NCBI GenBank assembly: GCA_903857865.1
Contig: CAIOGO010000005.1
Location: 1 to 31,594 of the forward strand
Reading direction: 5' to 3'
DNA length: 31,594 nt
DNA from: an uncultured bacterium
GTDB lineage: Bacteria; Bipolaricaulota; Bipolaricaulia; UBA7950; UBA9294
How positions within the stretch are numbered: the first letter of the stretch is position 1; the number at the start of each line of letters is the position of its first letter. The notes under the pieces were generated by a model. It made no database searches. It was not told the origin of the DNA and saw nothing but the letters and a program-made list of their open reading frames with translations. The translations under genes and the position numbers were made by a program. Below are positions 2,705 to 31,594 of the stretch, piece after piece.

Positions 2705-2770
2705 TCGCCTACGGTACAGCAAGAGAGGGCGCAACGCTCTCGCAGGTCGGAGCGCATGATAAGGTAGATC

Positions 2771-2800
2771 GGAGGGCCTATTGGCCGTCCGTTTTTGTTT
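2771..2800 (+). terminator. Terminator-like hairpin in the sigma-factor leader
   Basis: GGAGGGCC (2771-2778), loop TATT, GGCCGTCC (2783-2790) form a stem with one G-G mismatch, followed immediately by GTTTTTGTTT. This has the form of an intrinsic terminator. It lies between the promoter at 2676-2704 and the ATG at 2839, so it would either attenuate the sigma-factor transcript or end a separate small RNA of about 85 nt. Confidence 0.55.
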
Positions 2801-2838
2801 CGATAATACCCTGCTTGGTCTGCCGGCCAGGAGGAGAC

Positions 2839-3783
2839 ATGAAAGAGCCAAGGGCAACGGTCAGTCTGTCAAGGAATCTGAGTACATCGTCGGACGACGA
2901 GTACGAGATGATCGACGCCGACGACAGGCCGTCTCGTGCCGACAACCCCATCCGCACGTATTTCGGAGAGATCAGCCGTGTCCCGCTTCTCACGCGCGAG
3001 GACGAGGTTCGTCTTGCCAAGAGAATCGAGGCGGGCGATCAACGAGCGAAGGAGGAGTTGGCCGAGGCCAACCTCCGCCTCGTGGTTTCCATCGCGAAGA
3101 AGTACCGCGGCTGCGGGCTTCCCTTCCTTGACCTCATTCAGGAGGGCAACCTCGGCCTCATGAAGGCCATCGAGAAGTTCGACTACACGAAGGGGTACAA
3201 GTTCTCGACCTACGCCACGTGGTGGATCCGCCAGGCGATTCTTCGCGCGATCACAAACCGCTCGCGCACGATTCGCGTTCCGACCCACATCAACGAGCTG
3301 ATTCGGAAGATCTACCAAGTGGAGCGCAACTTCCTCAAGGAGAACGGGGAACTCCCCACGCCCGAGAGCCTCGCGCACGAACTCGAGACCACGGTCGAGA
3401 ACATCATCAAGGCGAAGAAGACCGCGCAGAGCATGACGTCGCTCGACATGCCCATCGGCTATGACGACGACGGCTCGGTGCTTGGGGACTTCATCGAGGA
3501 TTCGACCGTCGACTCTCCCGAGCGCGAGACGTTCGAGCACCTCCTCGTCGAGGAACTCGAGCGCGCCCTCGACGAGCGGCTGACCGATCGCGAGAAGCGC
3601 ATCCTCGAGCTTCGCTACGGGCTCAACGACTATCAGCCGAGGACACTCGACGAGGTCGGCATTGAGTTCGGCATCAGTCGAGAGCGTGTCCGCCAGATCC
3701 AGAAGGAAGCTCTGGCCAAGCTTCAGGATTCTGATCTGAAGCAGCGACTCGAATGGTTCAAGCTTCTATCGGAGGCTGCGTAG
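2839..3783 (+). CDS. rpoD: Primary RNA polymerase sigma factor (sigma-70/SigA family)
   Basis: A 314-aa sigma-70 factor. Region 1.2 lies near residues 36-70 ([10 protein letters not shown]). Region 2 lies near 75-145, with [13 protein letters not shown] and the -10 recognition segment [13 protein letters not shown]. Region 3 begins at R-V-P-T-H-I-N-E-L. Region 4 ends the protein, with L-R-Y-G-L-N and the -35-reading helix [13 protein letters not shown]. There is no region 1.1, so it is short for a housekeeping sigma, but the conserved segments are of the primary (group 1/2) type. ATG 2839 follows AGGAGGAGAC; longer in-frame starts reach back through the leader hairpin and are rejected. The 3' end overlaps convergent topA by 26 bp. 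Confidence 0.95.
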
Positions 3784-6052
3784 ACGAGTCGTCGATGGGC
3801 GAAGCGGTCGCCTCGCGATACGTGCATTCCTTCGTCGTGCAGCGTAGTTCGCCGCCTTTTTCGAACAGAACGCCCGACTCGCATGACGGGCACTCCTTGA
3901 CCGGTCGGTCGCTCGTGGCGAAACGGCACTCTGGGTACCGACTGCAGCTGTAGAACGCACGCCGGCGCTTGGCTGAGTACTTCTCGACCAGCTGCCCCTG
4001 CCGGCACTGTGGGCAGAGCACACCCGTCGACACGGATGCCGTGGCGCCGCACTCCGCGTTGCTGCAGCGGTAGTATCGGCCGTAGCGACCGGAGCGCAAC
4101 TCCATTGCCAGCCCGCACTTCGGGCACGGGACGGTCGAGGCGGCGGACTCCGCCGCCTTGTCGAGCGCGGCCTGCACTTCGACACGCTCGGCCCCGTACA
4201 CGACATCGAGATCCGGCGGCAAGCTCACGGTGTTTCGACACTCGGGGTACTTGGAGCATCCGAGGAAATGGCTCCCTTTCCAGTAGCGTAGCTCCATGGC
4301 GGCGCCGCATGCCGCGCAGACAGCGTCCGTCGGAACTTGGAACGGCCGCTCTTCGGATCCCTCGATCTTCGCCTCTAGGGCGCCCAGCCGCGCCGAAAAG
4401 GGCTGGTAGAACTCGTCGAGCGCCTCCTGCCTCGACATGTCGCCCTCTTCGATCCGGTCCAGATCCTCTTCCAGGTGCGCCGTGAATTGCGGCTCGACGG
4501 TCTCGGCGAAGTACTGAGTGAGGAAGTCCACGACCATGTGACCGAGCAGGGTGGGCCGCATGCTCGAGCCATCCTTGATCGCGTAGTTGCGTTCCTGGAT
4601 CACCGACACGATCGACGCGTACGTGCTCGGCCGTCCAATCCCTTCCTTCTCGAGCACGTTGACGAGGCCCGCTTCGCTGTACCGCCGCGGAGGCTCGGTG
4701 AACTTCTGCCGTTTCTCGACGGAAACGAGTGACAGCACTTGTCCGATGTCAAGCTTCGGAGGAAACGTCGCTTCTCTCTCGCGACGCTCCGGCAGTGCGC
4801 GCAGGAATCCGTCGAACGCAAGCTCGCTGCCGGCCGCCTCGAGCTGGAGCGGACCTGCCTCGACGGCCACGCTGCGCTGCCGATACACCGCGCTCGTCAT
4901 CTGCGTCGCGAGGAATCGCCCGTAGATCAGCTGATAGAGCTTCATCTGCTCCGGAGTCAGGTAGCTCGCCACGGATTCGGGAGTCCGCGCCACATCCGTG
5001 GGGCGAATGGCCTCGTGGGCGTCCTGGGATTTCCGCTTGTTCTCGAACGTCCGAATCTTGTCCACAAGGTACTTCTGCCCGTGCGTTTCGCGAATCGCCT
5101 CGCGCGCCGCCTCGACCGCCTCGTCGGACAACCGCACGGAGTCGGTCCTCATGTACGTGATCAGTCCCTGGGAGCCCTCTGGCAGGCCGATCCCCTCGTA
5201 CAGTTCTTGCGCAATGGCCATCGTCCGCTTCGGCGAGAAGCCAAGGAACGACGACGCGGCCTGCTGCAGGGAGCTCGTGATGAACGGAGGCGCCGGGTGC
5301 CGTAGGCGATCCTTCTCTTCGACGGCGCGAACGCGAATCTTGGCCTTGCCGAGCGTCGTCGCCACGTCGTCCGCTTGGACGGCCGACCGCACGACGAGCT
5401 TCTCGCCAGCCGTCTTCGTCACGAGCGCCGCGAATCGCTCTCCGTTCTCGAGCGTCGCCTCGATCTCCCAGTACTCCTCCGGGACAAACCGCGCGATCTC
5501 CTTCTCTCGATCGCAGAGGAACCGAAGGGCCACCGACTGCACCCGCCCCGCGGACAACCCCGCAAAGCGGTTTCCGGCGAGCGTCCGCGACAAGAGCGGG
5601 CTGATGAGGTAGCCCACCAAGCGATCGAGGACTCTCCGCGTGCGCTGAGCCTCCACTCGGTGGAGGTTGATCTGCTCCGGGTTCTTCAGGGCCGCGAGGA
5701 TGACCGGCTTCGTGATCTCGTTAAAGATCGGGCGCGAGAACGCTTTGTCGTCCTTGACGACTCGCTTGAGGATGGTGTAGAGGTCGTACGCAATCGCTTC
5801 GCCCTCGCGATCGTGATCCGTCGCGAGGTAGATATGCTCGGCATCCTGTGCCGCTTTCCGCAGCTCCGTCACGAGCTTCGACCTCTTCGTCTCGAACTTC
5901 GGCTCGAAGCCCTTCTCGATGTCGACGCCGAGTTCGCCGGTGGGCAGATCGCGCACGTGCCCCTGCGAGGACAGCACCCTGAATCCGTCGCCAAGATACT
6001 GCCCAATCGTCCGCGCCTTGGTCGGCGACTCCACAATGATCAAGTTCTTCAA
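3758..6052 (-). CDS. topA: DNA topoisomerase I (type IA)
   Basis: A 764-aa enzyme that relaxes negative supercoils through a 5'-phosphotyrosine intermediate. The N-terminal TOPRIM domain has E8 (I-V-E-S-P-T-K-A) and the D79-H-D81-R-E-G-E-A metal site. Tyr300 in I-T-Y-M-R-T-D-S is the nucleophile. Four C-terminal C4 zinc-ribbon repeats follow (starting C-A-A-C, C-P-K-C, C-P-Q-C and C-P-S-C), ending in a short Ser/Thr-rich tail. The start is TTG 6050-6052, with AAGGAG upstream; no ATG fits the conserved N-terminus. A perfect TATAAT lies at 6079-6084. It is convergent with the sigma-factor gene, and the two 3' ends overlap by 26 bp, so neither can have a separate intergenic terminator. Confidence 0.97.
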
Positions 6053-19889: not shown

Positions 19890-19918
19890 ATTGTACAGAA
19901 CCCGTTTTGAGACGTCAA
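19890..19918 (-). promoter_or_regulatory. Strong promoter of the tRNA-tuf-rpoB array
   Basis: On the - strand TTGACG (19913-19918), exactly 17 bp, then TACAAT (19890-19895). Transcription should start near 19883, about 14 nt before tRNA-Thr(TGT). It is the best promoter in the window and the only clear one seen for the 12-kb - strand array. Confidence 0.8.
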
Positions 19919-19920
19919 GA

Positions 19921-20586
19921 GCTAGTCCACGCCTACGCCAAGCAAGTTCCACGGCCCTAGTGTACGCACAGATGGCAAACGCCCGCCAGGACTTCGGGAA
20001 ACGAGTCAAATGACGGTAACGCTGGGCTCCGCTGATGCGATGGCCACTCTGGTTTCGCGATGGCAGCTGCTGCTCTTAGGGGGAGCAATCCACTTCCCAA
20101 CCGACGACCCTCTTGCTGAGGCCATGGCCACCAAGTTGGAGGGGTTCGAGATCCGCCGAACCGAAGCAGCAGAGGTCACGTGGCTCGAAGGTAGGCGAGC
20201 AAGCGACAAATCGCGTCCCCGGAGTCCGTCAACCGACATGCTTAGGGCCGAGTCCCATGGCCCCCTGCAGAAGCCAACCAGGACGCCCCCGAGTTCTCGA
20301 CGCAACAGGCGCGAGAACTCGCAAGCTGCTGAGCATCGCGGACCGCTCAGCAGCCCTTCTCCCCTAGCTACTCGGCAGGCCGGCTGCCGAGTAGCCATCG
20401 TTGAGGCGCTCCGCCAGCTCATGGCGCCGTCCGCTCCCGGCCGCCACCCGATCGGGTTCACGCCGCCGGCTGAGGAATCCGAGATCGACAGCACGTAGGC
20501 GGCAGCCAAATCGACGATTCCGCGCCATGGACTGCGGACGCAGTTCCTACAGGCTACGCGCGGCTCTTTTCGCAGTTTCCGCCCAT
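19921..20586 (+). other. Gene-poor junction; possible decayed phage-type reading frame
   Basis: No convincing intact gene was found. One + strand frame (20010-20498) starts with a protein-like stretch of about 50 residues, including G-G-A-I-H-F-P-T-D-D-P-L-A-E-A-M and L-E-G-F-E-I-R-R-T-E-A, loosely like the C-terminal part of phage terminase large subunits. It then degenerates into Ser/Arg/Pro-rich translation that runs through three perfect stem-loops, as real coding sequence rarely does. A similar-length frame exists on the other strand and looks like its shadow. This is probably the edge of the island and may hold a prophage remnant; evidence for the latter is weak. Confidence 0.3.
20290..20395. 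other. Three tandem perfect stem-loops (possible structured RNA or recombination/replication site)
   Basis: H1 has a 10-bp stem CGAGTTCTCG/CGAGAACTCG (20290-20299, 20312-20321) with a 12-nt loop. H2 has a 10-bp stem GCTGCTGAGC/GCTCAGCAGC (20325-20334, 20345-20354) with a 10-nt loop. H3 has a 12-bp stem GCTACTCGGCAG/CTGCCGAGTAGC (20367-20378, 20384-20395) with loop GCCGG. All are perfect, have different sequences, and follow each other with spacers of 3 and 12 nt. No T-run follows, so they are not simple terminators. Because stems are DNA palindromes the strand is undetermined. Confidence 0.75.
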
Positions 20587-20615
20587 TTGGATTCGACCTA
20601 CGCCTACGCTAGAAT
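20587..20615 (+). promoter_or_regulatory. Promoter of the restriction-type operon
   Basis: TTGGAT (20587-20592), 17 bp, TAGAAT (20610-20615), predicting a start near 20622. The -10 lies in the loop of a small inverted repeat, CTACGC (20604-20609) with GCGTAG (20617-20622), which could be an operator. The helicase ATG is at 20664. Confidence 0.55.
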
Positions 20616-20663
20616 CGCGTAGATCCGTTTGGAGGCAGAGACGACGTCGGACACACGCCGGCC

Positions 20664-23600
20664 ATGAGCACCGATCGAACATTCTTCACGAACGAGCCCA
20701 ACGCGACTCTTCTTGATCGGTTCACGTCAACGCTCCGAGACACGCAGTTCTTTGATGTGCTCGTCGGCTACTTCCGGACTACGGGCTTCTTCCGCCTGCA
20801 CGAAGCTCTCGAGTCAGTAGACAAGATAAGGATACTTGTCGGGATCGCCGTCGATCAATCGACCGTTGAAATCCTCGACACAGTGGACATGCGCCAGCGT
20901 CTCGACTTCGAGTCGCACGGGAACACCCAACGAAGCTTCTCCGAAGCCACCCGAGACGAGCTGGATGGTTCGGACGACACCTATGACGTGGAACGAGGAG
21001 TGCGAGCCTTCATCGAGTACCTGACTCAGCCCTGTGCTGACCCGGAGGCGGACAGGGCAAGAGGCGGGAACGGCCTGAAGCTGGAGATCCGCGCGTATCC
21101 CAGCCCCAACCTGCATGCGAAAGTGTACATCAGCCGCTATCGCGTCGAGGACCGCGACTTCGGCTGCGTCGTGACGGGGTCCAGCAATTTCAGTGAAAGC
21201 GGGCTTGTCGCGAACCGAGAGTTCAACGTCGAGCTCAAGGACAAGGCAGATGTTGAGTTCGCTCTGTCCCAGTTCGAAGCCCTCTGGTGCGATGGTGTCG
21301 ATGTCTCCAGGACGTATGCCGACACCGTCCGCCGGCAGACGTGGCTCAATGACGAGATCACTCCCTACGAACTCTACCTGAAGATGCTGTACGAGTACCT
21401 GAAGGAGGACATCAACCTGGACCAGGAGGAAGAACCGCACCTGCCCCCTGGGTTCCTGCACCTTGAGTACCAGAAGCAGGCGGTCGTCGCCGCGCGCAAG
21501 ATGCTCGAGGCATACAACGGCATCTTCCTTGCTGACGTGGTCGGGCTCGGCAAGACGTTCATCGCAGCACTTCTCGCCCAACAGCTGCCTGGAGGCAAGC
21601 TAGTCCTCTGCCCACCTGTACTCAAGGAGTACTGGGAGCAGACGTTCTTTGACTTCAGCGTTCGCAGCTTTCGAGTTGAATCAATCGGGAAGCTGGACCA
21701 CATCCTGCGTGAGGGTGCGGACAGGTACGACTACGTGTTCATCGACGAGGCACATCGGTTCCGCAACGAGTACACGCAGGGGTTTGAGCGCCTCCACGAG
21801 ATCTGCTTCGGCAAGAAAGTCGTTCTGGTCTCCGCTACCCCGCTCAACAACACCTTCGAGGACATCTTCAGCCAGCTGAAGCTCTTCCAGGTGCCACGGC
21901 AGTCTACGCTTCCCGGTGTCCCGGACCTGGAGGCGTTCTTCAAGAGGCTGAGCGAGCCGCTCCGCGGTCTGCGCAGATCAGATCCGGAATACGGCCTGCG
22001 GATCAAGGAGGGCTCAAAGGAGATCCGTGAGAGGGTACTTTCCCACGTCATGGTGCGTCGGACGCGGACCGAGATCATGCGCTACTACAAGGACGACATT
22101 GAGCAGCGCGGCCTCGCTTTCCCCTTGGTCGAAGAACCCAGGAGGATCGTCTACCGATTCGACCGCAAACTGGACGAGATCTTCACCAGGACAATAGAGC
22201 TGCTAAAGGTGTTCCGCTATGCGCGGTACACGCCGCTCCTCTACCTCAAGGCCGGAGTGACAGCGCTCGAAGAGCAGAGCCAGCGGAACGTCGGCGGATT
22301 CATGAAAGGTGTGCTTGTCAAGCGCTTGGAGAGCAGCTTCTTCGCATTCCGCCGATCTCTCGGCCGCTTCATCGACTCGTACGAACAGTTCCTCGCAATG
22401 CTCGATCATGGCACGGTCCTGATTAGCAAGCGGGTCAACGTGTACGACCTTCTTGAGGAGGACGATGAGTTGCGCATTCGGGAGCTGGTTGAGCAGGAGA
22501 GGGTTGCCAGCTACTCGAGCGACGACTTCCGGCCGCAACTCAAAGAGGATCTGAAAGCCGACCTCTCTCTCCTGCGGGAGATCGTCGCAATGTGGGAGGA
22601 CGTGACCGCCGACCCGAAACTCGACGCACTCATTGACCGGCTCAAGACCGATCGAGAGCTCAGAAACCACCCACTGATTGTGTTCACCGAATCCAAGGAG
22701 ACCGGCGAGCACCTACTCAAGCACCTGGAGAAGGCATTCCCCGGCAAGGCGCTGTTCTACTCCAGCCAAGGTGGGGTGCATGCGGGCGAGACAATCTCCG
22801 TCCCCCGTTCAAGGGAGATTATCCGAGCCAACTTCGATCCCACGAGCCGAGAGCAGGCGAGCGACATCAAGATCCTGGTGAGCACGGATGTGCTTGCCGA
22901 AGGTATGAACCTGCACAAGGCGAATGCCGTGGTCAACTACGACTTGCCCTGGAATCCGACCAAGGTGCTCCAGCGTGTGGGACGCGTGAATCGCGTTGGC
23001 AGCAAGCATGCCGGGATTCTTGTCTACAACTTCTTCCCTACCGATCAGTCGGAGGAGCAGATCGGCCTCGAGGCGTGCATCAAGAACAAGATCCAAGCAT
23101 TCCACGATACCCTTGGGGAAGACGCGAAGTACCTGACAGAAGAGGAGATCATCTCGACGCACGAGCTGTTTGGGGAGACCGTCTACAAGCGTCTGTCGAG
23201 CAAGAAGACCTACGAGGGCGATGAGGATGAGGAGCCGGCCTCTGCACTGGAGTACCTGATGCTCCTTCGGAGACTCCGCGACGATGAGCCCGAGCTGTTC
23301 CAATGCATCAAGCAGCTGCCCCGGAAGGCACGGACGGCGAAGCCGGTCGAGGGGAGGCAGGATCGGCTCATCACTTTCTTCCGGAAGGGGAGGCTCGAGA
23401 AGTTCTACGTGTCGGCTGCGGAAGGGACGACCGAGCTTACCTTCCTGGAAGCGGCGAGGGCATTCGAATGCGAGAAGGGCCAGAAGCGGGCCGCCCTCCC
23501 TCGGGCGTTCTACGACCGCCTGTCGGAAAGCAAGGCGGCGTTCATGAGCTCCACATCGCAGCAGACCGAGTTGGAGTACCCGAAACACGACTCTCGCTCC

Positions 23601-23915
23601 AACGAGGCATACATCAGCCGCAGACTTCGGACGGCGGAGTTCGCCAATCACCCGGCGCTGGCCGACGAGGACGAGGATTTCGTTCAGCGTGTTCTCACGG
23701 CACTAGAGGCCGGTATCATCCCGCGGAATGCCGCCCGGAGGATCAAGCGCGCGATCGAGAGGGAAGTGAGCCCACTGAAGGTGATCGTCACCCTGCGGAA
23801 TGAAATACCCGGGACGCTCCTGCAACAGGGAGCTCAGCCTTCTCACATCCCACTTGGCCGCCGCGAGGTCATCTTGTCGGAGTACCTTGTAGGAGGAACC
23901 GAGCGTGGATCGTGA
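20664..23915 (+). CDS. PLD-nuclease domain/SNF2-like helicase of a restriction-type defence operon
   Basis: A 1083-aa protein. The N-terminal third is a phospholipase D-superfamily nuclease-like domain: P-N-L-H151-A-K153-V-Y, then T-G-S-S-N175-F-S-E-S-G-L, the HxK...N pattern of PLD nucleases such as BfiI relatives. A superfamily 2 helicase follows: L-A-D-V-V-G-L-G-K-T (Walker A, near 289-298), D361-E-A-H (Walker B), S-A-T-P-L-N-N (390-396), and C-terminal motifs S-T-D-V-L-A-E-G-M-N-L (from about 739) and Q-R-V-G-R-V-N-R (about 770-777). The order and the D-V-V-G-L-G-K-T/DEAH pair are SNF2/Swi2-like. It overlaps the downstream methyltransferase gene by 11 bp, so the two are co-translated. Likely role: ATP-driven DNA translocation and cleavage of unmodified invader DNA (inferred). 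The ATG has only a distant GGAGG. Confidence 0.88.
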   Translation: MSTDRTFFTNEPNATLLDRFTSTLRDTQFFDVLVGYFRTTGFFRLHEALESVDKIRILVGIAVDQSTVEILDTVDMRQRLDFESHGNTQRSFSEATRDELDGSDDTYDVERGVRAFIEYLTQPCADPEADRARGGNGLKLEIRAYPSPNLHAKVYISRYRVEDRDFGCVVTGSSNFSESGLVANREFNVELKDKADVEFALSQFEALWCDGVDVSRTYADTVRRQTWLNDEITPYELYLKMLYEYLKEDINLDQEEEPHLPPGFLHLEYQKQAVVAARKMLEAYNGIFLADVVGLGKTFIAALLAQQLPGGKLVLCPPVLKEYWEQTFFDFSVRSFRVESIGKLDHILREGADRYDYVFIDEAHRFRNEYTQGFERLHEICFGKKVVLVSATPLNNTFEDIFSQLKLFQVPRQSTLPGVPDLEAFFKRLSEPLRGLRRSDPEYGLRIKEGSKEIRERVLSHVMVRRTRTEIMRYYKDDIEQRGLAFPLVEEPRRIVYRFDRKLDEIFTRTIELLKVFRYARYTPLLYLKAGVTALEEQSQRNVGGFMKGVLVKRLESSFFAFRRSLGRFIDSYEQFLAMLDHGTVLISKRVNVYDLLEEDDELRIRELVEQERVASYSSDDFRPQLKEDLKADLSLLREIVAMWEDVTADPKLDALIDRLKTDRELRNHPLIVFTESKETGEHLLKHLEKAFPGKALFYSSQGGVHAGETISVPRSREIIRANFDPTSREQASDIKILVSTDVLAEGMNLHKANAVVNYDLPWNPTKVLQRVGRVNRVGSKHAGILVYNFFPTDQSEEQIGLEACIKNKIQAFHDTLGEDAKYLTEEEIISTHELFGETVYKRLSSKKTYEGDEDEEPASALEYLMLLRRLRDDEPELFQCIKQLPRKARTAKPVEGRQDRLITFFRKGRLEKFYVSAAEGTTELTFLEAARAFECEKGQKRAALPRAFYDRLSESKAAFMSSTSQQTELEYPKHDSRSNEAYISRRLRTAEFANHPALADEDEDFVQRVLTALEAGIIPRNAARRIKRAIEREVSPLKVIVTLRNEIPGTLLQQGAQPSHIPLGRREVILSEYLVGGTERGS

Positions 23916-26900
23916 GAGCGCCCGAAGGATCATCGAGTCGTGCCTCGCGCAGCCATTCGCAGAGGATCGCTTTCGCCTCCTTGCAGTCAACCTCCTAGAG
24001 GGGATCGACGAAGACAAGGAGTTCAACTGGGTTTCCGGCCAATACATCCGGGACGCGTTCAAGGATCACGTCCGCAAGTACCGCCGCCTCGGCACATACA
24101 CAGATCCGGATGGGCGAACGCTCGATGTCCTTGTCGTTCACCTCAAGAACCCATGGGCGCTTGAGAGGTCCCGAGCCACCCAGCGCAACTTCGTGGCTGA
24201 ATACTTGAGGCAGCGCGGGGAGAAGGACGCGGCGCTCATTGCGTACCACGTTGATGATCCCGCGAACTGGCGCTTCTCGTTTGTCAGAATGCAGTACCGC
24301 GAGGAAGTCACGGAGGACGGCCGGGTCAAGGTGAAGGAGGAGTTCACGCCTTCGCGGCGGTACTCGTTCCTCGTTGGCCAGAATGAGCCGAGTCACACTG
24401 CACGGCAGCAGCTTGTCCCGCTGCTTGAAGAGGTCGAGACGCCCACGCTCGACGAGATCGAGCGGACCTTCAGCGTCGAGCGGGTCACGAAGGAGTTCTA
24501 CACCGACTATCGTGGTCTCTTCGAGAAGGCGCGCGCGGCGCTCGATTCGATCGTTGAGAAGAACAAGCGAGTGCGTGACGAATTCGCCAGGCAGTCGATC
24601 GATCCAGCGAACTTCGCGAAAAAGCTCCTTGGTCAGATCGTCTTCCTGTACTTCCTCCAGAAGAAAGGGTGGCTGGGTGTAGGACGCGACGAGGCCGGCG
24701 ACTTCCGGGCCTGGGGACAGGGGCCCAGGGACTTCCTCCGCAGGCTGTACGAGAAGCAGTTCGGTGGGTACAGGAGCTTCTTCGACGAGATCCTTGAGCC
24801 CCTCTTCTACGAAGCACTCGCGACCGAACGGCCGGATGACGTCTATACGCGCTTCAGCTGCCGCATCCCGTTTCTCAACGGCGGCCTCTTCGAGCCTTTG
24901 AATGACTACAACTGGCGCGAGGTTGACATCCACATTCCGAACGACCTGATCGCTGAAGTGCTCGGCACGTTCGACCGATACAACTTCACCGTCCGCGAGG
25001 ACGATCCGCTAGATCGGGAAGTTGCCGTGGACCCCGAGATGTTAGGGAAGGTCTTCGAGAACCTGCTCCCGGAGAACCTGAGGAAGGGCAAGGGCTCGTA
25101 CTACACGCCGCGGAACGTTGTCCACTTCATGTGCCAGGAGAGCCTCATCAACTACCTCGATGGAGCTGTCAACCGTGAGGCTGTCTCTCTCCTGCCAGGC
25201 CATGGGCAGCAACGCCTTATCGCTACGGGAGAAGCGGAGCAGATGGCACTCGGGAGTGGGGGATCTCTAGTTCCGCGGGCGGATCTTGAGGAGTTCATCC
25301 GCCGCGGCGAGTTCTCGCAGGAAATGGATGCAGCAAAGGTCGGGGGAACGAAGAGCTACAAGTACCGGTTGCCAGAGGCCATTCGCACACACGCCCAGGA
25401 ACTAGACCAGGAGCTCTCAGCCATCAGAGTCTGTGACCCCGCGGTAGGATCCGGAGCCTTCCTGGTTCGGATGATGCACGAGATCGTGAAGGCCAGGGCG
25501 ACTCTCGCGACGTACGTCACCGGAAAGTCTCCCGGGAGCCCATACGAGCTGAAGCGGGCCTGCATCCAGAACTGCCTGTACGGCGTCGACATCGATCCAG
25601 GTGCGGTTGATATTGCGAAACTCCGTCTCTGGCTCTCGCTTGTTGTGGATGAGGAGGAGTACAAGTCAATCCATCCGCTTCCGAACCTCGACTATAAGGT
25701 GATGCAGGGGAACAGCCTGTTCGAGGACTTCCATGGGATAAGTCTCTTGCCCGATCAGGGAGAGAGAAGCGGGACTCTGCTCAGGCGCGACAGAGGTCTC
25801 GTCGAGCGCATCGCGAAGCTCCACAAGACCCAAGCCGAGTACTTCGACGCGAACCACCCCGGCGAGAAAAGGAAGCTTAGGGCCGACGTGGAGGACTCGA
25901 TCCTCGAGGTGTTTGCCTACGCGATTGAGAGGCAGAGTCGCGATTACCTCGAAGCGAAAGTTCAAGTCGAGAGGAAGGGAAAGGGGATCCCCCAAGCCTC
26001 GCGAGAGAAATACATCGCTGAGGAACTCACGAAGCTCCAGGGTCGCTTGGGGTGCGCCCCAGATGAGCTTCGCGCCGAGCTCCGCGAACTTACGCATGGC
26101 AACGTCCCCCGCGACTTCTTCCCGTGGCGGCTCTACTTCGCTGATGTATTCGAGACGGGTGGGTTCGACGTGGTGATCGCCAATCCACCGTATGGGATCG
26201 ACGAGCCTGCAGCAGTGCGGGACCGTTTCTTTCCAGAATGCGCGGGCGGGCAACAGAACGCTGATTCCTATGCACTCTTCATTGCGATGGCCCTCGACCT
26301 GCTCGGTCCGAACGGCAACATATCTTTCGTCGTGTCAGATACGTGGCGCACGCTAGGTTCGCACCTGCCGCTTCGCCGTCTACTTCTCAGCCGCTCCAGA
26401 CTCTGCTCCGTTCTTTCCCTGCCCCCTTGGGTTTTCGGAGCGACCGTCAACACATGCGTGTTGAATGCTGTCCATGCTCCCGGTACGGAACGCGCTCGTG
26501 AGCGCAACGCGAATCTGGTGAAGGTCTGCGACTTCTCCCAGTTGCCCGAATCAAACAAGGATCTGACGACTCAGGTTCTTCGGCAGTGGGACGATGACGC
26601 GAAGCTCAACGTCCAGGCGGGGGGCTGGCGCATTGTCGAGGCGCCCTGTATCGCAACAGCGGGCACTTCCGACGTCCCGGTCGCTCGCTATTCGTATCGA
26701 CAGGAGCAGATCGAGGAGTACTCTCGCGCGGCGATCTTCATCGCAAGCCCTGTGCTGCACTGGGTGATGGCAGACCAGGGTACGCGCGTGCGGCATGAGC
26801 ACATCGCGATGTCTCAGGGCCAACCGATCTGCGCGCGAGTGCAGAAGCGTGGCGGCACCGAGGTAGCGCTCGTAAACCTCGAGCAGATCGCTGAAGTGAA

Positions 26901-27747
26901 AGTTGGCCTGCAGACGGGGGACAACTGCTACTACCTTCGCCGGAACAAAGAAGCTCACACGAGTTACGAGCTAGTCGATGAGGCGGAAGTCATCAGCGAT
27001 GGTGAGATCCAGAGCCTGAGCGAGGATGAAAAGAAGAACGGTGTGGATCCGGATTGTCATGGGGGACACCGCTTCCTGCCGTACGAGAAGGGTGAGAAGT
27101 CGGAAACGAAGATGGGTTGGCTTCCGAACTACTGGGTTCCGCCGACTCACTTCATCGATTGGTCTAGAGCAGCTGTGGCGCGCATGCGCAATCTGACAGT
27201 GGCAGAGCGAAAACGCTTCTACAACCAGACTGCGGCGATTCGCCGGGGGGACGATACGAGGATCGCAAGTCGCTTTCAAAACGCCCAGTACTACTTCAGA
27301 CCAGGAGTCACTGCATCGCGTGTAGGCATCTACAGCCCCACGTTCCGTCGCTCAATAGGAACGGTGTTCGATTCTGGTTGCTCCAACATCATCAGCTCCA
27401 GATTCACGACCGACTTTCTGCTCGCAGTATTGTGCAGCAAGGCAGTGAAGTACTTCTTCACCGCTTTCGTGAATCACACGGTCAACTCACAGGTCGAAGA
27501 CCTGAAAGAGATACCAGTTCCCCTGACGCTCCTTGACTCGGAGAGCGGATTGTCAGAGCTTGCAGAGAGCATTATCGAGCACCAGAGGAGGGATCCGATG
27601 TACGCCTACCAGCTCCACGAGCAGGTCCAGATTGACAAGCTTGTGTACGCGGCCTTCTTGATGGACCAGGAGGACATCGCTGAAGTCGAGTCATGGTACG
27701 CCAGAGAGTATCCACACCTTCGCGGGTCCAATCCTGGGGTGCCATAG
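23905..27747 (+). CDS. Eco57I-like N6-adenine DNA methyltransferase/restriction-type protein
   Basis: A 1280-aa protein. The SAM-binding motif I is D511-P-A-V-G-S-G-A-F-L and the catalytic motif IV is N760-P-P-Y-G, the gamma-class N6-adenine methylase order. The motifs are 250 residues apart because of a long charged insert (about 590-740). The N-terminal 120 residues carry L-D74-V-L-V-V-H-L-K81 and R-A-T-Q-R-N-F-V-A-E-Y-L, a segment I associate with large Eco57I-type restriction-methylases; whether it is a nuclease is unproven. S-Y-Y-T-P-R-N-V-V precedes the SAM domain. The C-terminal part (about 960-1250) looks like a TaqI-type target-recognition domain. The start is GTG 23905 with AGGAGG upstream, inside the helicase 3' end. 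It probably marks host DNA and supplies specificity for the PLD-helicase. Confidence 0.9.
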   Translation: MDRESARRIIESCLAQPFAEDRFRLLAVNLLEGIDEDKEFNWVSGQYIRDAFKDHVRKYRRLGTYTDPDGRTLDVLVVHLKNPWALERSRATQRNFVAEYLRQRGEKDAALIAYHVDDPANWRFSFVRMQYREEVTEDGRVKVKEEFTPSRRYSFLVGQNEPSHTARQQLVPLLEEVETPTLDEIERTFSVERVTKEFYTDYRGLFEKARAALDSIVEKNKRVRDEFARQSIDPANFAKKLLGQIVFLYFLQKKGWLGVGRDEAGDFRAWGQGPRDFLRRLYEKQFGGYRSFFDEILEPLFYEALATERPDDVYTRFSCRIPFLNGGLFEPLNDYNWREVDIHIPNDLIAEVLGTFDRYNFTVREDDPLDREVAVDPEMLGKVFENLLPENLRKGKGSYYTPRNVVHFMCQESLINYLDGAVNREAVSLLPGHGQQRLIATGEAEQMALGSGGSLVPRADLEEFIRRGEFSQEMDAAKVGGTKSYKYRLPEAIRTHAQELDQELSAIRVCDPAVGSGAFLVRMMHEIVKARATLATYVTGKSPGSPYELKRACIQNCLYGVDIDPGAVDIAKLRLWLSLVVDEEEYKSIHPLPNLDYKVMQGNSLFEDFHGISLLPDQGERSGTLLRRDRGLVERIAKLHKTQAEYFDANHPGEKRKLRADVEDSILEVFAYAIERQSRDYLEAKVQVERKGKGIPQASREKYIAEELTKLQGRLGCAPDELRAELRELTHGNVPRDFFPWRLYFADVFETGGFDVVIANPPYGIDEPAAVRDRFFPECAGGQQNADSYALFIAMALDLLGPNGNISFVVSDTWRTLGSHLPLRRLLLSRSRLCSVLSLPPWVFGATVNTCVLNAVHAPGTERARERNANLVKVCDFSQLPESNKDLTTQVLRQWDDDAKLNVQAGGWRIVEAPCIATAGTSDVPVARYSYRQEQIEEYSRAAIFIASPVLHWVMADQGTRVRHEHIAMSQGQPICARVQKRGGTEVALVNLEQIAEVKVGLQTGDNCYYLRRNKEAHTSYELVDEAEVISDGEIQSLSEDEKKNGVDPDCHGGHRFLPYEKGEKSETKMGWLPNYWVPPTHFIDWSRAAVARMRNLTVAERKRFYNQTAAIRRGDDTRIASRFQNAQYYFRPGVTASRVGIYSPTFRRSIGTVFDSGCSNIISSRFTTDFLLAVLCSKAVKYFFTAFVNHTVNSQVEDLKEIPVPLTLLDSESGLSELAESIIEHQRRDPMYAYQLHEQVQIDKLVYAAFLMDQEDIAEVESWYAREYPHLRGSNPGVP

Positions 27748-28021
27748 AGCCGGTGACAGAAGAGGGTGTCGGGGTTAGATGCTGTATCGAATGTCAAGCC
27801 TCCTTCAGAGCGGGAGGGCAGAACGGTTCGCCAGGCGGTGGGGTCAGATCTTCACTTGACAGGTCCCGCCACAGGGGCGGTGGGTCATCCCCGTTGCCTC
27901 ACGTACGGTGCGAGGGGGGGCGGGGTTCGGTCTTGCATTCCAGCACAAGATCCTGGCGAGACCCAACGACCAACGCCTTCGCGGCGCCTGGGCCGTCGAG
28001 AGAAGCGTGGAACGGGCGCGC
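27748..28021 (+). other. Non-coding spacer holding the start of a long repeat
   Basis: No protein-like frame was found between the methyltransferase stop and the nucleotidyltransferase promoter. The right part contains a copy of the GGGGTTCGG repeat (27922-27953) and the diverged left portion of the long direct repeat. The frame that runs into the next gene from 27766 translates to low-complexity sequence and is not believed. Confidence 0.5.
27922..27953 (+). repeat. Interspersed short repeat, copy 1
   Basis: The core GGGGTTCGGTCTTGCATTCC is followed by AGCACAAGATCC. It is continuous with the conserved flank (TGGCGAGACCCA...) that leads to the nucleotidyltransferase promoter. The tail CCAGCA..GATCC is shared, with variation, by the other copies. 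Confidence 0.75.
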
Positions 28022-28155
28022 GCCAGTGTCAGAGTGGCGCTGTAGACAAACTGCATACGCTCGTATACGATAAGCATACGATGGCTGGCGTGCTGGAGAC
28101 CCTGTTTGGATCAGTGGCTCGAGTCAAGGTCTTGTCGCTCTTTCTGCAGGACGCA
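27934..28155 (+). repeat. Long direct repeat, left copy
   Basis: This segment recurs at 31372-31594. The upstream 90 bp are diverged (scattered substitutions and a 1-nt length difference), whereas 28022-28155 is identical base for base to 31461-31594 (134 bp). The identical block covers the promoter, the iterons and the first 25 codons of the nucleotidyltransferase gene. The right copy is cut by the window end, so the true length is unknown. Confidence 0.9.
28043..28080 (+). promoter_or_regulatory. Promoter with iteron-like ATACG operator, nucleotidyltransferase gene
   Basis: TAGACA (28043-28048), 17 bp, TACGAT (28066-28071), with transcription expected at or next to ATG 28081, so the mRNA is probably leaderless. 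Three ATACG boxes start at 28055, 28065 and 28076, spaced 10 and 11 bp, i.e. on one face of the helix; the outer two are GCATACG and the middle one lies in palindrome CGTATACG. They overlap the core promoter, the usual place for a repressor site. The winged-helix domain of the product is the obvious candidate repressor. Confidence 0.6.
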
Positions 28156-28677
28156 GCGAGCGAGTTCTACCTGCGAGAGATCGCCCAGAAGACAGGCCTC
28201 GCGCTGCGCTCCGTTCAGCGCGTCGTGCACGACCTCGCTGAGATTGGCCTACTCCTCCGCGAGCCTCGGGGCAATGCGGTCTACTTCCGCCTCGACAGGG
28301 ACTTCCCCATCCTGCCTGACCTGAAGGGCATGTTCCTCAAGACGACGGGCCTCGGCGCCTTGCTGGCGGAGAGGATCACACGGGAGGGGGGAGTCGACGT
28401 GGCATTCCTCTATGGATCGGTGGCGAAGGGCACGGAGGCGGCCACGAGCGACCTCGACTTGGCTGTCGTGGGGCACCTTGCGACGCGGCGGCTGACGGCG
28501 TGTCTGGCCGAGGTCGAACGGGAGACGGGCAGAGAGGTCAACGCAACGTTGTTCACGCCTGCTGAGTGGAGCGCTCGGCGCGACGCTGACGACCACTTCG
28601 TCGCGACGCTCCTTCGCGAACCGAAGATCATCCTCGTGGGAAGCGCGGAGATGCTGGAGGCGCAGCGTGGAGAGTAG
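28081..28677 (+). CDS. Winged-helix/nucleotidyltransferase (MNT-like) protein
   Basis: A 198-aa protein. An N-terminal winged helix (residues 1-72: F-Y-L-R-E-I-A-Q-K-T-G-L-A-L-R-S-V-Q-R recognition region, wing G-N-A-V-Y-F-R-L) is fused to a minimal nucleotidyltransferase with G112-S-V-A-K-G and D124-L-D126-L, the GS...DxD catalytic signature of MNT-type polymerase-beta-fold enzymes. Such domains often act as antitoxins or AMPylating partners of HEPN toxins. The ATG at 28081 is preferred to a longer frame because the -10 box lies just upstream and the winged helix begins there. A small frame overlapping its stop may be what remains of a partner gene. The promoter and 5' end are duplicated at the right edge. 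Confidence 0.88.
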   Translation: MAGVLETLFGSVARVKVLSLFLQDAASEFYLREIAQKTGLALRSVQRVVHDLAEIGLLLREPRGNAVYFRLDRDFPILPDLKGMFLKTTGLGALLAERITREGGVDVAFLYGSVAKGTEAATSDLDLAVVGHLATRRLTACLAEVERETGREVNATLFTPAEWSARRDADDHFVATLLREPKIILVGSAEMLEAQRGE

Positions 28678-28822
28678 GGTGTCCAGTGTCGGAAAGGTGT
28701 TGACACTTCAGGCCTCTGCGCTCTCGGCGCGAGACGGCGCGCGCATCACGCGAAGCTCGCCAAGACCGCCAAGAGAAGCCAAGGGACTCCCGACGAGGTC
28801 ACCCTCCGCTGTAGCGTCGTGA
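28667..28822 (+). pseudogene. Short reading frame overlapping the nucleotidyltransferase gene, possible truncated partner
   Basis: GTG 28667 opens a 51-aa frame overlapping the previous gene by 11 bp. Its first part reads like a protein start (V-E-S-R-V-S-S-V-G-K-V-L-T-L-Q-A-S-A-L-S-A-R), then it becomes Arg/Ser/Pro-rich and stops. MNT-type genes are commonly followed, with an overlap, by a HEPN-domain gene, so this may be the stub of one. No HEPN motif (R-x4-6-H) is visible. It may equally be chance. Confidence 0.3.
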
Positions 28823-28912
28823 GCTTGGCTCCGACGTCGATTGCGATACGCGAACGTCGCACGTCGCCGTCGCACACAAGGTGCGACGCTACATCCACAA
28901 CGCCGTCGCGCA

Positions 28913-28950
28913 GCCGACGGGGTTCGGTCTTGCATTCCAGTATTGGAATC
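28913..28950 (+). repeat. Interspersed short repeat, copy 2
   Basis: GCCGACGG followed by GGTTCGGTCTTGCATTCCAG, then TATTGGAATC. Relative to the tandem copies at 31250-31327 it differs only in the tail, where ATTCCA and TGGAAT form a small stem-loop. Confidence 0.8.
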
Positions 28951-29108
28951 TAGCGATTCCTACGACTGCGACTGGCGGCCCGTGTCCCGGGACACAGAGC
29001 CAGGTCCTGCAATCGCGCATCGGGCTGCCCTCGGATACGGGGAGTGCCACGTGCTGGAATCCGATCCTTGGTGGGTGTCGCGAGCAGTCACGGAGTCTCT
29101 AGAGCCGG

Positions 29109-29114
29109 TAGACT
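29109..29114 (+). promoter_or_regulatory. -10-like element before the 135-aa hypothetical gene
   Basis: TAGACT ends 6 nt before ATG 29121. No Shine-Dalgarno sequence is present and the -35 region is poor. A leaderless transcript is the simplest reading. Confidence 0.35.
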
Positions 29115-29120
29115 GCCGAC

Positions 29121-29528
29121 ATGTACGCGATCAAGGCTGAGGTCGGCGACCCAGGGGCGGAGTCGTTCGCGTTCGACGAGCAGAAGACGATGTACGGTGG
29201 CAGGCACATTGCCAAGGGCGACACGATCTTCATCTTTGCCAGCGAGAACGAGGGCGGTTCAGGTCTAGTTGCCAGCGGCATCGTCACGTCAGCCCAAGCG
29301 AGTCCACGGAGACCCGGGATCGCCCGGCAGACGCCGCGCGTCAGCGTCGCCATCCGGCGCACGGCGCTCGCGAAGCGTCGCCTAGGACGGAGCGAGCTCA
29401 AACCCTTCTCCGACTGGAACGACGGTCGCCCCGAGACCGAGCTCAACTTGAAGCTCTACCGTCAAGCAACGGGCAAAATCGTGGGCATCTCAAACGAAGC
29501 AGCAGCATTCCTCCGCGGGTTCTTCTAG
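29121..29528 (+). CDS. Conserved hypothetical protein, possibly PUA/EVE-like
   Basis: A 135-aa protein beginning M-Y-A-I-K-A-E-V-G-D-P-G-A-E-S-F-A-F-D. It has a strand-rich core (K-G-D-T-I-F-I-F-A-S-E-N-E and G-L-V-A-S-G-I-V-T-S-A) and a C-terminal L-K-P-F-S-D-W-N-D-G-R-P-E-T-E-L-N. The layout, with a beta-barrel strand 'GDTIFIFAS' followed by 'G.GLVA.G.V', resembles small PUA-superfamily/EVE proteins that sense modified bases. I recognise it as a plausible conserved protein but cannot name a family with certainty. It has no frame-coupled neighbour. Its place beside restriction genes would suit a modified-nucleotide reader, which is inference only. Confidence 0.6.
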   Translation: MYAIKAEVGDPGAESFAFDEQKTMYGGRHIAKGDTIFIFASENEGGSGLVASGIVTSAQASPRRPGIARQTPRVSVAIRRTALAKRRLGRSELKPFSDWNDGRPETELNLKLYRQATGKIVGISNEAAAFLRGFF

Positions 29529-29767
29529 CGCGGCTGACTCTCGAGGGCGACGGAGTCGACCGGCGGGGTCGGGAGCTGGCGGACTAGGGCGCGAGTCAGG
29601 TCCGCAATCACGCGCAGCTGTCTTTCGGGCGTCGGGATTCGGTCCTGCAATCCAGCACTAGATACTGCTAGATCCGTGTAGATCCCGCATCGCTGCTAGG
29701 CGCCGTCGCGTCTTGCGAACGGCGCCGCTGCTCGCCTACCGAGACGATGCGGCTGGTGGTCCGGCCA
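29529..29767 (+). other. Spacer between the hypothetical and ATPase genes
   Basis: No gene is seen. It contains a degenerate copy of the short repeat (29631-29662, GGATTCGGTCCTGCAATCCA) and ends at the operator region of the ATPase gene. Confidence 0.45.
29631..29662 (+). repeat. Interspersed short repeat, degenerate copy 3
   Basis: GTCGGGATTCGGTCCTGCAA then TCCAGCACTAGA matches the repeat core with about four substitutions. It keeps the order TTCGGT, CTGCA, TCCAGCA. Confidence 0.55.
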
Positions 29768-29820
29768 TTGTCCTTCTCAGGCGGACAACAATCGGCTACA
29801 CTGTCCTTCATGGAAGGACA
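29768..29820 (+). promoter_or_regulatory. Promoter and TGTCC/GGACA palindromic boxes spanning the ATPase start codon
   Basis: TTCTCA (29774-29779), 17 bp, TACACT (29797-29802) predicts a start at about 29810, the ATG itself. Two inverted pairs surround it: TTGTCC (29768-29773) with GGACAA (29783-29788), and TGTCCTTC (29802-29809) with GAAGGACA (29813-29820), the latter centred exactly on ATG. The first pair lies over the -35/spacer and the second over the -10 end and start codon. A dimeric repressor binding both would block initiation; the second could also fold as an RNA hairpin hiding the start. Confidence 0.55.
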
Positions 29821-31135
29821 ACTACGGGCGCTCATCCGACAGAAGATCGTCGATTCGCTCGCGGCGTCGCCACCTTCGCTCACGCGGCGTGACGTGCGTC
29901 TGCCCACGGTGGAGGGGAAGGCGATCGCCGTCCTCGGGATGCGGCGAACGGGGAAGACGACGTTCCTCTGGCAGGTGCTCTCCGACCGGCTCGACGCAGG
30001 GACGCCGCGCGAGGGGCTCCTCTACTTCAGCTTTGAGGATGAGCGGCTGGCGGGGATGACGGCCGCCGACCTCGGCCTCTTGCTCGAGGAGTACTATCGC
30101 CTCTATCCCGAGTGGCGCGATGGCCAGCGGGTGACCTTCTTCCTTGACGAAATCCAGGTCGTGCCGGGGTGGGAGCGGTTCGCGCGGCGGCTTCTGGACA
30201 CGGAGAGGATCGACCTCTTCCTCTCGGGGTCGTCGGCGCGGCTGCTGTCGCGCGAGGTGGCGACGGCGATGCGCGGGCGTGCGATGGAGGCGCTTGTCCA
30301 CCCGTTCAGCTTCCGCGAGGTCTTGCGCCATCGGAGCTGTGAGCCGAAGACCGATCCAGACAGGCTCCCGAAGTCGGCACGCTCGGCCCTCGAGCGCGAC
30401 CTTCGCGAGTACCTCACGACAGGTGGCTTCCCCGAGGCGGTTGGCGTCCCGGCGCGCGACCGGATCGAGCTCCTGCGTGGCTACGTTGACGTTGTCTTGT
30501 TTCGCGATGTGGTCGAGCGGCACAACGTCACGAATCCGCTCGCCCTACGGGCCATGACGCGGCAGCTCCTCGCGAATGCGGCGGGGCCGTTCAGCGTGAG
30601 CAAGTTCCACGGCGCCCTGCACTCGCAGGGTGTCGCGGTGGCAAAGGACTCGCTCCACGCATACCTCTCCTACCTAGAGGACGCATTCCTTGTCCGCACG
30701 GTGTCGATCGACGCGGGTTCGGAACGACAGCGGATGGTGAACCCACGCAAGGTCTACCCGATCGATCCGGGACTGATCCCGCTGTTCGACCGCTCGGGGC
30801 GCGCAAACCTCGGGCATGCCCTAGAGACATGCGTCTTGCTCGATCTCGAGCGACGCGGCGCGGAGATCACCTACGTTCGGACGCGAAGTGGGTTCGAGGT
30901 GGATTTCCTCGCCCGCGGCTCCGGCGGGGAAGAGAAGCTGATCCAAGTCACGGCTGAGGCGATCGACCCTGCGACGCGGGAACGCGAGCTGCGCGCGCTC
31001 GTCGAGGCCGAGGCAGCGTATCCACGCGCCTCGCTCCACCTCGTGGCGCTCGATCCGGAGGACGTAGGAGAGCTTCCAAGGGGTGTCACTCTGCACTCGG
31101 CCGTGAATTGGCTCTTGCGGGCGGACGAGACGTAA
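29810..31135 (+). CDS. AAA_14/DUF4143-family ATPase
   Basis: A 441-aa protein. The N-terminal AAA+ domain has Walker A G43-M-R-R-T-G-K-T50, Walker B F-F-L-D113-E114-I-Q and S-G-S-S-A-R-L-L (139-146). A central T-T-G-G-F-P-E-A-V and a winged segment follow. The C-terminal DUF4143 domain has G-F-E-V-D-F-L and L-I-Q-V-T-A-E, a PD-(D/E)XK-like fold in which the usual E-x-K is Q-V-T, so catalysis by that domain is doubtful. Family members are frequent in mobile and defence regions, but their role is poorly known. ATG 29810 is chosen over 29747 because the promoter and palindrome centre there and the family N-terminus begins near it. Confidence 0.9.
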   Translation: MEGQLRALIRQKIVDSLAASPPSLTRRDVRLPTVEGKAIAVLGMRRTGKTTFLWQVLSDRLDAGTPREGLLYFSFEDERLAGMTAADLGLLLEEYYRLYPEWRDGQRVTFFLDEIQVVPGWERFARRLLDTERIDLFLSGSSARLLSREVATAMRGRAMEALVHPFSFREVLRHRSCEPKTDPDRLPKSARSALERDLREYLTTGGFPEAVGVPARDRIELLRGYVDVVLFRDVVERHNVTNPLALRAMTRQLLANAAGPFSVSKFHGALHSQGVAVAKDSLHAYLSYLEDAFLVRTVSIDAGSERQRMVNPRKVYPIDPGLIPLFDRSGRANLGHALETCVLLDLERRGAEITYVRTRSGFEVDFLARGSGGEEKLIQVTAEAIDPATRERELRALVEAEAAYPRASLHLVALDPEDVGELPRGVTLHSAVNWLLRADET

Positions 31136-31481
31136 GGAACCGAGCGGGTTCCGGTGACACAATACCAGACTCCGTCTTCTTGTGTCCCCATACGGCCGGA
31201 GGCCGGGGACACGATCCCGATCTGGTGGCAGGTGGCGCAGATCGTGCCAGGCCGACGGGGTTCGGTCTTGCATTCCAGCATTGGATCCGGCCGACGGGGT
31301 TCGGTCTTGCATTCCAGCATTGGATCCTGCCGCATCTTCTTGGCCCGCTGGGCGATGACGGGAGCGCGTCCTGCATTCCCGCACGAGATCCTGGCGAGAC
31401 CCAGCGACCAACGCCTTCGCGGCGCCTGGGCCGGCGAGAGAAGCGCGCAGCGGACGCACAGCCAGTGTCAGAGTGGCGCTG
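31136..31481 (+). other. Non-coding, repeat-rich spacer
   Basis: No gene is seen. Just after the ATPase stop GGAACC/GGTTCC forms a 6-bp hairpin without T-run. An 8-bp inverted repeat GTGTCCCC/GGGGACAC (31182-31189, 31205-31212) encloses a smaller CGGCC/GGCCG hairpin. Two tandem short repeats and the diverged left part of the long direct repeat follow. Confidence 0.5.
31250..31327 (+). repeat. Interspersed short repeat, two perfect tandem copies (4 and 5)
   Basis: A 39-bp unit occurs twice without a gap (31250-31288 and 31289-31327), identical in both. It starts GGCCGACG, continues GGGTTCGGTCTTGCATTCC and ends AGCATTGGATCC. The tail TCCAGCATTGGA can form a 4-bp stem. A further degenerate copy (TGCATTCCCGCACGAGATCC) begins at 31372 and joins the long direct repeat. 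Confidence 0.9.
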
Positions 31482-31519
31482 TAGACAAACTGCATACGCT
31501 CGTATACGATAAGCATACG
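31482..31519 (+). promoter_or_regulatory. Promoter and ATACG operator, second nucleotidyltransferase copy
   Basis: Identical to the element at 28043-28080: TAGACA (31482-31487), 17 bp, TACGAT (31505-31510), with the three ATACG boxes in the same phase. The product of either copy could bind both. Confidence 0.6.
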
Positions 31520-31594
31520 ATGGCTGGCGTGCTGGAGACCCTGTTTGGATCAGTGGCTCGAGTCAAGGTCTTGTCGCTCTTTCTGCAGGACGCA
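31520..31594 (+). CDS. Second winged-helix/nucleotidyltransferase gene, 5' part only
   Basis: ATG 31520 opens a frame of 25 codons that reaches the window edge. It is identical in DNA to codons 1-25 of the gene at 28081. Whether this copy is complete or a fragment cannot be told from the window. Confidence 0.7.
   Translation, partial: MAGVLETLFGSVARVKVLSLFLQDA

Follow-up and report, generated by a model that had tools for sequence, protein, structure and literature searches.

A dispersed two-hairpin repeat, probably mobile and REP-like, at a defence-island edge in Bipolaricaulota

The three hairpins analysed here, which lie at the edge of a defence-type island in a 31,594-nucleotide stretch of Bipolaricaulota DNA (the window), amount to 1.5 copies, one whole and one truncated, of a dispersed two-hairpin repeat. 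This repeat occurs in many copies, has inserted beside genes and within other copies of itself, has grown in tandem and keeps its pairing through paired changes, and both the feet of its stems and the linker between them are conserved. We consider it probable that the repeat is a non-autonomous mobile element of the REP-like kind, with a new architecture and with hairpins that are maintained in place. It apparently has not been described before, and we file it as REP-like, although it is neither a GTAG nor a CGTC REP. A search of the open-access literature yielded no paper on such a repeat in Bipolaricaulota.

The focal hairpins and the repeat unit

The original prediction placed three perfect inverted repeats within 20290-20395. 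They are present, and chance hardly accounts for them: the whole window holds five perfect hairpins (arms of at least 10 bp, loops of 3-15 nt) against 0.75 expected, three such hairpins inside 120 nt were encountered in 0 of 200 shuffles, and the RNA fold of the region has a z score of -5.9, with none of 200 shuffles equally stable. The cluster is far above chance. That no T-run follows the hairpins was also borne out. The features of the site are as follows.

20290-20321, minus strand: hairpin A, the first hairpin of the original prediction (10-bp stem, 12-nt loop)
20325-20354, minus strand: hairpin B, the second hairpin (10-bp stem, 10-nt loop)
20367-20395, minus strand: hairpin B of the truncated copy, the third hairpin (12-bp stem, 5-nt loop)
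20290..20354, minus strand: complete repeat copy (stem B 20325-20354, linker TTG 20322-20324, stem A 20290-20321)
20355..20395, minus strand: truncated repeat copy (stem B 20367-20395, linker TAG 20364-20366)
20355-20363, minus strand: stem A remnant GGGAGAAGG in the truncated copy
19937..20663, no strand assigned: gene-poor stretch holding both copies, from the end of synteny to the helicase start (blastn of G001 and G002; no gene predicted)

When the 181 bp around the hairpins were searched against the genome to which the window belongs (G000; 2.24 Mb, 22 contigs), partial matches with an identical layout and different stem letters appeared elsewhere. The unit, read on the minus strand at the focal site, consists of stem B (GGC...GC), a linker of 3-4 nt (mostly TAG), stem A (GGAG...CTCC) and TGG, and measures about 50-95 bp; in this direction the focal site reads B-TAG-(A remnant)-B-TTG-A. 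With a covariance model (R1) built from seven other copies, the focal copy being held out, the complete focal copy scored 47.9 bits (E 1e-9 in the window, 7e-8 genome-wide) and the truncated copy 32.9 bits; a full copy at G000 C14:85075-85120 matches the B stem and linker of the latter at 96% identity. The description of the hairpins as sequence-unrelated therefore holds letter by letter, but the second and third are both of type B and the first is of type A within one repeat. The accompanying denial of duplication fails, because all three hairpins belong to a single repeat family, in which stems drift apart through paired changes.

In G000, R1 returned 67 matches at E ≤1, about 59 of them at E ≤0.015, a few of the matches being the opposite strand of one palindrome. 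The copies located by search number about 60, at about 42 sites and on both strands, and the 60 copies analysed below correspond to 42 sites. Clusters and tandem arrays occur, the latter with a period of about 76 bp, and 11 of 14 close copy pairs are arranged head-to-tail. Stem A is preceded by CTAG in 48 of 73 copies, by CTTG in 11 and by CTGG in 5, and is followed in most copies by TGG, TGA, AGG or TGT; the A-side ends of the unit are not sharply defined. One sub-family, with a stem A of the form GCTTGCGGC...GCCGCAAGC and more uniform stems, is found at L010 818-888, L072 1543-1706, L067 961-1032 and L038 1408-1477, and is possibly the most recently active group. Locus L067 (G000 C6) also carries a long tandem repeat at 2753-4370, with a period of about 126 bp and shifted copies 74-77% identical.

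The island edge assumed in the original prediction is real. In the sister species G001 and G002, similarity to the window (blastn) covers tRNA-Thr together with its 5' flank and ends near 19896-19936; beyond this point the two species have other sequence, and neither a helicase operon nor the repeat occurs in the part that was read. The break in synteny implies that the two copies came in together with an inserted block that carries the defence island, or were inserted into that block. No gene was found over the focal region by the codon model, and two long ORFs there have no Pfam match. The copies lie about 270 bp upstream of the helicase start and antisense to the helicase gene, and position 20038-20049 is 92% complementary to 20389-20400, making it a possible left partner of the focal pair which, having no hairpin of its own, was not counted.

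The island itself (20664-31135) encodes a PLD-plus-SNF2 helicase, a type IIG restriction enzyme-methyltransferase-like protein, a nucleotidyltransferase (PDC-M05A) and an AAA/DUF4143 protein (PDC-S01). A promoter-like segment with TAGAAT and GGAGG precedes the helicase at 20567-20635, and segments 79-88% identical to it precede other large genes (G000 C14:81362, C20:110565 and C17:49837; G015 C91); as a repeat link to PLD-helicase genes it was rejected, being a separate promoter-like repeat. A 227-bp direct repeat, 95% identical between 27930-28155 and 31368-31594, reaches the end of the contig, so the assembly probably broke at a repeat.

Insertion sites, gene context and distribution

Comparison of empty with filled sites demonstrates that copies insert beside genes. 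In 18 genomes of the family, tRNA-Ser(gct) and tRNA-Arg(ccg) are matched without interruption, the gap between them being 0-7 nt (0 nt in the congener G002), whereas it is repeat-filled and 89 nt long in G000 and 333 nt long in G001. In both inserts GTGGC (stem B) follows the CCA end immediately, and an inverted stem B closes the insert, directly before tRNA-Arg or no more than 2 nt from it. The spacer between tRNA-Ser(tga) and tRNA-Ser(gct) measures 68 nt in G002, 356 nt in G000 and 413 nt in G001, and in the latter two genomes arrays of the repeat stand before the tRNA promoter. Two units directly behind a stop codon are common to G000 and G003 at the tRNA-Val locus, where G001 lacks the repeat and G002 carries one short, degenerate unit. 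No target-site duplication was seen at the filled tRNA-Ser/Arg and tRNA-Val sites, and a two-nucleotide duplication (TG...TG), checked by eye, proved inconsistent. Since the repeat opens up tRNA operons, it may affect tRNA processing.

Copies also insert into one another: two duplicate segments of a single locus are distinguished by the presence of a second copy lodged within the first copy, and the stem-B loop of another copy encloses two copies. At L080 1344-1514 (G000 C14), two copies are found between operon genes, and the upstream gene reads through the first of them in frame as a protein tail; a duplication at this locus was rejected as a target-site duplication, being a tandem duplication of a gene-start segment around the second copy. 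The tRNA-Ser/tRNA-Arg junction carries inserts of other hairpin sequences in another genus (416 nt in G017, L187; 276 nt in G023, L186), which may mean that hairpin families with no relation to each other insert in the same manner.

Most copies in G000 (51 of 60) are outside predicted genes. Genes were called with ARAGORN and with a simple codon model for which stretches of G000 served as training data, so the following counts of orientation and of gene ends are approximate: among the 50 copies with both neighbours, 18 lie with and 18 against codirectional genes, 10 between convergent genes and four between divergent genes, the focal pair being two of these four; B ends fall within 4 nt of a gene end in seven cases against 1.6 expected, and A ends in none against 1.6 expected. 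The B end is often flush with stop codons and tRNA ends.

Under strict filters, the repeat was detected in 12 of the 32 relatives belonging to the family of G000 and in one of the two genomes from a sister family; 65 genomes from other families of the class gave no copy. Nine copies are found in each of three congeners, and 22 and 23 in two genomes of another genus. An exact core pattern also occurs in records that include JAKLFO010000051 (RA.bin18) and JAPLGD010000091 (Lac Pavin), whose genomes yield match coordinates identical to those of the relatives G002 and G015; a search of viral contigs with two exact core patterns gave no match. A genome labelled Acidimicrobiia contains seven copies, and five of its relatives contain 1-7; feet and linker are unchanged there, and the B stems differ. 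The assignment to Acidimicrobiia is based on the title of the record and on the recurrence of the repeat in several relatives. The distribution is patchy, both in the family and in Acidimicrobiia.

Upkeep of pairing and competing explanations

Pairing is maintained despite free variation of the stem letters. Counted over 73 matches, in alignments that were fitted to the structure and so lean towards it, 97.6% of cells are standard pairs against 73.1% after shuffling, double-change cells number 239 against 58.8 in shuffles and 19-50 in slid controls, and 17 of 18 pairs show changes on both sides, an effect that is still very large. A second alignment set, to which other genomes contributed copies, gave the same picture. 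These two stems were also the ones predicted by RNAalifold, and 15 of 18 pairs there show double changes. The outermost pairs of stem B and the linker are nearly invariant; the remaining stem positions vary freely. Compensatory changes, for which a check with a covariance model had been suggested, are present as very strong covariation among copies at many loci, and the structure for which selection had been proposed is conserved.

The same upkeep can be followed in place. At four orthologous sites in sister species, 67 of 72 stem pairs are identical, five are changed on both sides and none is changed on one side or broken. For this count the arms were placed by eye at positions paired in both species, a choice biased towards pairing, and a copy may have been replaced instead of mutating. 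Loops of equal length in the orthologous copies differ at 30 of 57 letters. Stems are far more constant than loops and change together where they change. Plain decay fails to account for this; selection on pairing or template switching from arm to arm, a process of arm homogenisation between inverted arms (PMC8604942, PMC7202029), explains it. Such upkeep tells against a mobile origin to the extent that it is stronger than a decaying mobile repeat requires.

If the repeat is mobile, as we think probable, its copying may act on a folded single strand, for example on the lagging strand, with a trans-acting enzyme that would read the feet and linker and not the letters of the stems. After insertion, either selection or template switching by the polymerase from arm to arm would uphold the pairing, and the focal site would represent two tandem copies at the edge of the inserted defence island, one of which lost its stem A. 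The single-stranded recombination site envisaged by the original prediction survives here in part, since recognition of a folded single strand is still a live mechanism. A differing account, credible although we judge it unlikely, is that of a class of mobile DNA belonging to two phyla, in which one defined end inserts exactly at the 3' ends of genes and tRNAs through an enzyme other than the known REP transposases, the hairpins being kept afterwards by paired mutations since their structure serves the host.

A further alternative, which we regard as rather doubtful, is that the hairpins function in RNA where transcripts end, as terminators or in processing or stability, with selection maintaining their pairing, and that the copies are recruited signals. 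The prevalence of copies between codirectional and convergent genes, and seldom divergent ones, agrees with it, as do copies right behind a stop codon or tRNA CCA end and the stems upheld in orthologues. Yet TGG, TGA or AGG and no T-run follows stem A, copies in codirectional gaps are without strand preference (18 with, 18 against), the focal copies lie between divergent genes, and a terminator in the 89-nt insert of G000 would cut tRNA-Arg off from its upstream promoter. The perfect stems might instead be a by-product of template switching (quasipalindrome correction), with no selection on them and no need of structure for spread. Paired multi-base changes in orthologues, unaccompanied by single-sided ones, fit arm homogenisation (PMC8604942, PMC7202029), but as a complete explanation this seems quite unlikely: the feet, linker and trailing TGG common to two phyla, the copy number and the insertions are left unexplained, so template switching would form only part of the account.

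Two further readings name a specific agent or a local role. Movement by a Y1 transposase, which would make the repeat a true RAYT-driven REP/REPIN member, draws on four Y1 genes in G000, three of them within about 2 kb of copies, and on the resemblance of the CTAG right before stem A (48 of 73) to GTAG. We find it improbable, as GTAG precedes none of the 73 copies, the Y1 genes carry ends of the GGGGTCAG type and are not flanked by copies, and the two do not travel together among relatives, G015 having 22 copies and no Y1 gene and G017 five Y1 genes and no copies. No transposase matching the repeat was found, the Y1 genes being neither flanked by copies nor co-distributed with them across relatives. 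These genes, of about 290-300 codons, are at L028-L031 (G000 C22, C10, C22 and C13), and the GGGGTCAG/CTGACCCC sequence beside most of them is of the terminal-inverted-repeat type and not REP-flanked. A regulatory RNA or recombination/transfer site local to the PLD-helicase island, for which one could cite the helicase start about 270 bp downstream and the gene-poor surroundings, is extremely unlikely: the copies are read antisense to the helicase gene and match nothing in Rfam; as a general explanation it is refuted by the dispersed copies, some 60 of them beside unrelated genes. The single non-coding RNA gene or replication/transfer site of the original prediction is not supported, given that some 60 copies occupy about 42 sites on either strand, and its link to PLD-helicase operons is lost because copies adjoin many unrelated genes.

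Comparison with known repeat systems

Searches of Rfam at gathering and permissive thresholds gave no match (best E 0.49, 20.5 bits against a threshold of 52), consistent with the original prediction, which could name no family with the focal layout. The nearest relatives in character are the REP/BIME sequences and REPINs (PMC3733652, PMC3116915), which are likewise short dispersed palindromes in many copies, situated mostly in codirectional and convergent gaps and forming tandem and inverted clusters. Most REPs belong to either the GTAG or the CGTC family and are found chiefly where neighbouring genes are codirectional or convergent (PMC3733652), and inverted REP pairs, the REPINs, have been argued to be mobile units moved by RAYTs (PMC3116915). 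The present unit differs in having two unlike hairpins, free stem letters and conserved feet and linker, and in lacking both a GTAG or CGTC tag and a RAYT flanked by copies.

Taken by family, the features divide as follows. Like the GTAG super-family, the repeat is high-copy, mainly extragenic (51 of 60) and clustered (42 sites); the unpaired GTAG at the end of the palindrome is absent (0 of 73), and none of the four Y1 genes is directly flanked by copies. With the CGTC REPs, which have no dedicated transposase (PMC3733652), it shares that lack, whereas the CGTC tag occurs in 0 of 73 copies and, in place of an 8-9 bp stem with A-T at the first two positions, the outer pairs are G-C and C-G. 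The inverted pair of conserved REPs that forms the mobile unit of REPINs may have a counterpart in the inverted pairs that bound the tRNA-site inserts, but 11 of 14 close pairs are head-to-tail; a tail-to-tail pair as the general mobile unit was rejected, since it is seen at tRNA sites but close pairs elsewhere are mostly head-to-tail. TnpA-REP cuts folded single-stranded REPs in vitro (PMC8266576), and the substrates of this enzyme and of IS200/IS605 seem comparable, judging by their letters, in carrying a short motif at the 5' foot of the hairpin (CTAG here, GTAG there), although the tag differs and no matching Y1 gene is present.

Other hairpin systems are more distant. The T-run of intrinsic terminators is replaced in most copies by TGG, TGA, AGG or TGT, and the paired RYYYAAC/GTTRRRY at the base of a single integron attC fold has no counterpart in the feet GGC/GC and GGAG/CTCC of two hairpins. 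In layout, the mitochondrial double hairpin or repetitive hairpin elements (PMC2800124) are similar, being dispersed hairpin pairs with a patchy occurrence between close species, and for those of Allomyces no flanking duplications were reported either; they are mitochondrial and eukaryotic, and the comparison is one of descriptions. The Rickettsia palindromic elements (CGTC-1, CGTC-4; PMC3733652) are bacterial hairpin repeats that also lie inside genes, as in the read-through at L080, but they carry the CGTC tag, which the present, mostly intergenic repeat lacks.

How most bacterial short palindromic repeats spread is unsettled, a dedicated transposase having been proposed for the GTAG repeats only. 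Among them the present repeat stands out for its two hairpins with conserved feet and free stems, its clean empty and filled sites and the differences in occupied sites between sister species. With copies in two phyla and no matching Y1 gene, it is well suited to testing whether such repeats spread through an unknown enzyme, and also to separating selection on structure from palindrome-correcting replication.
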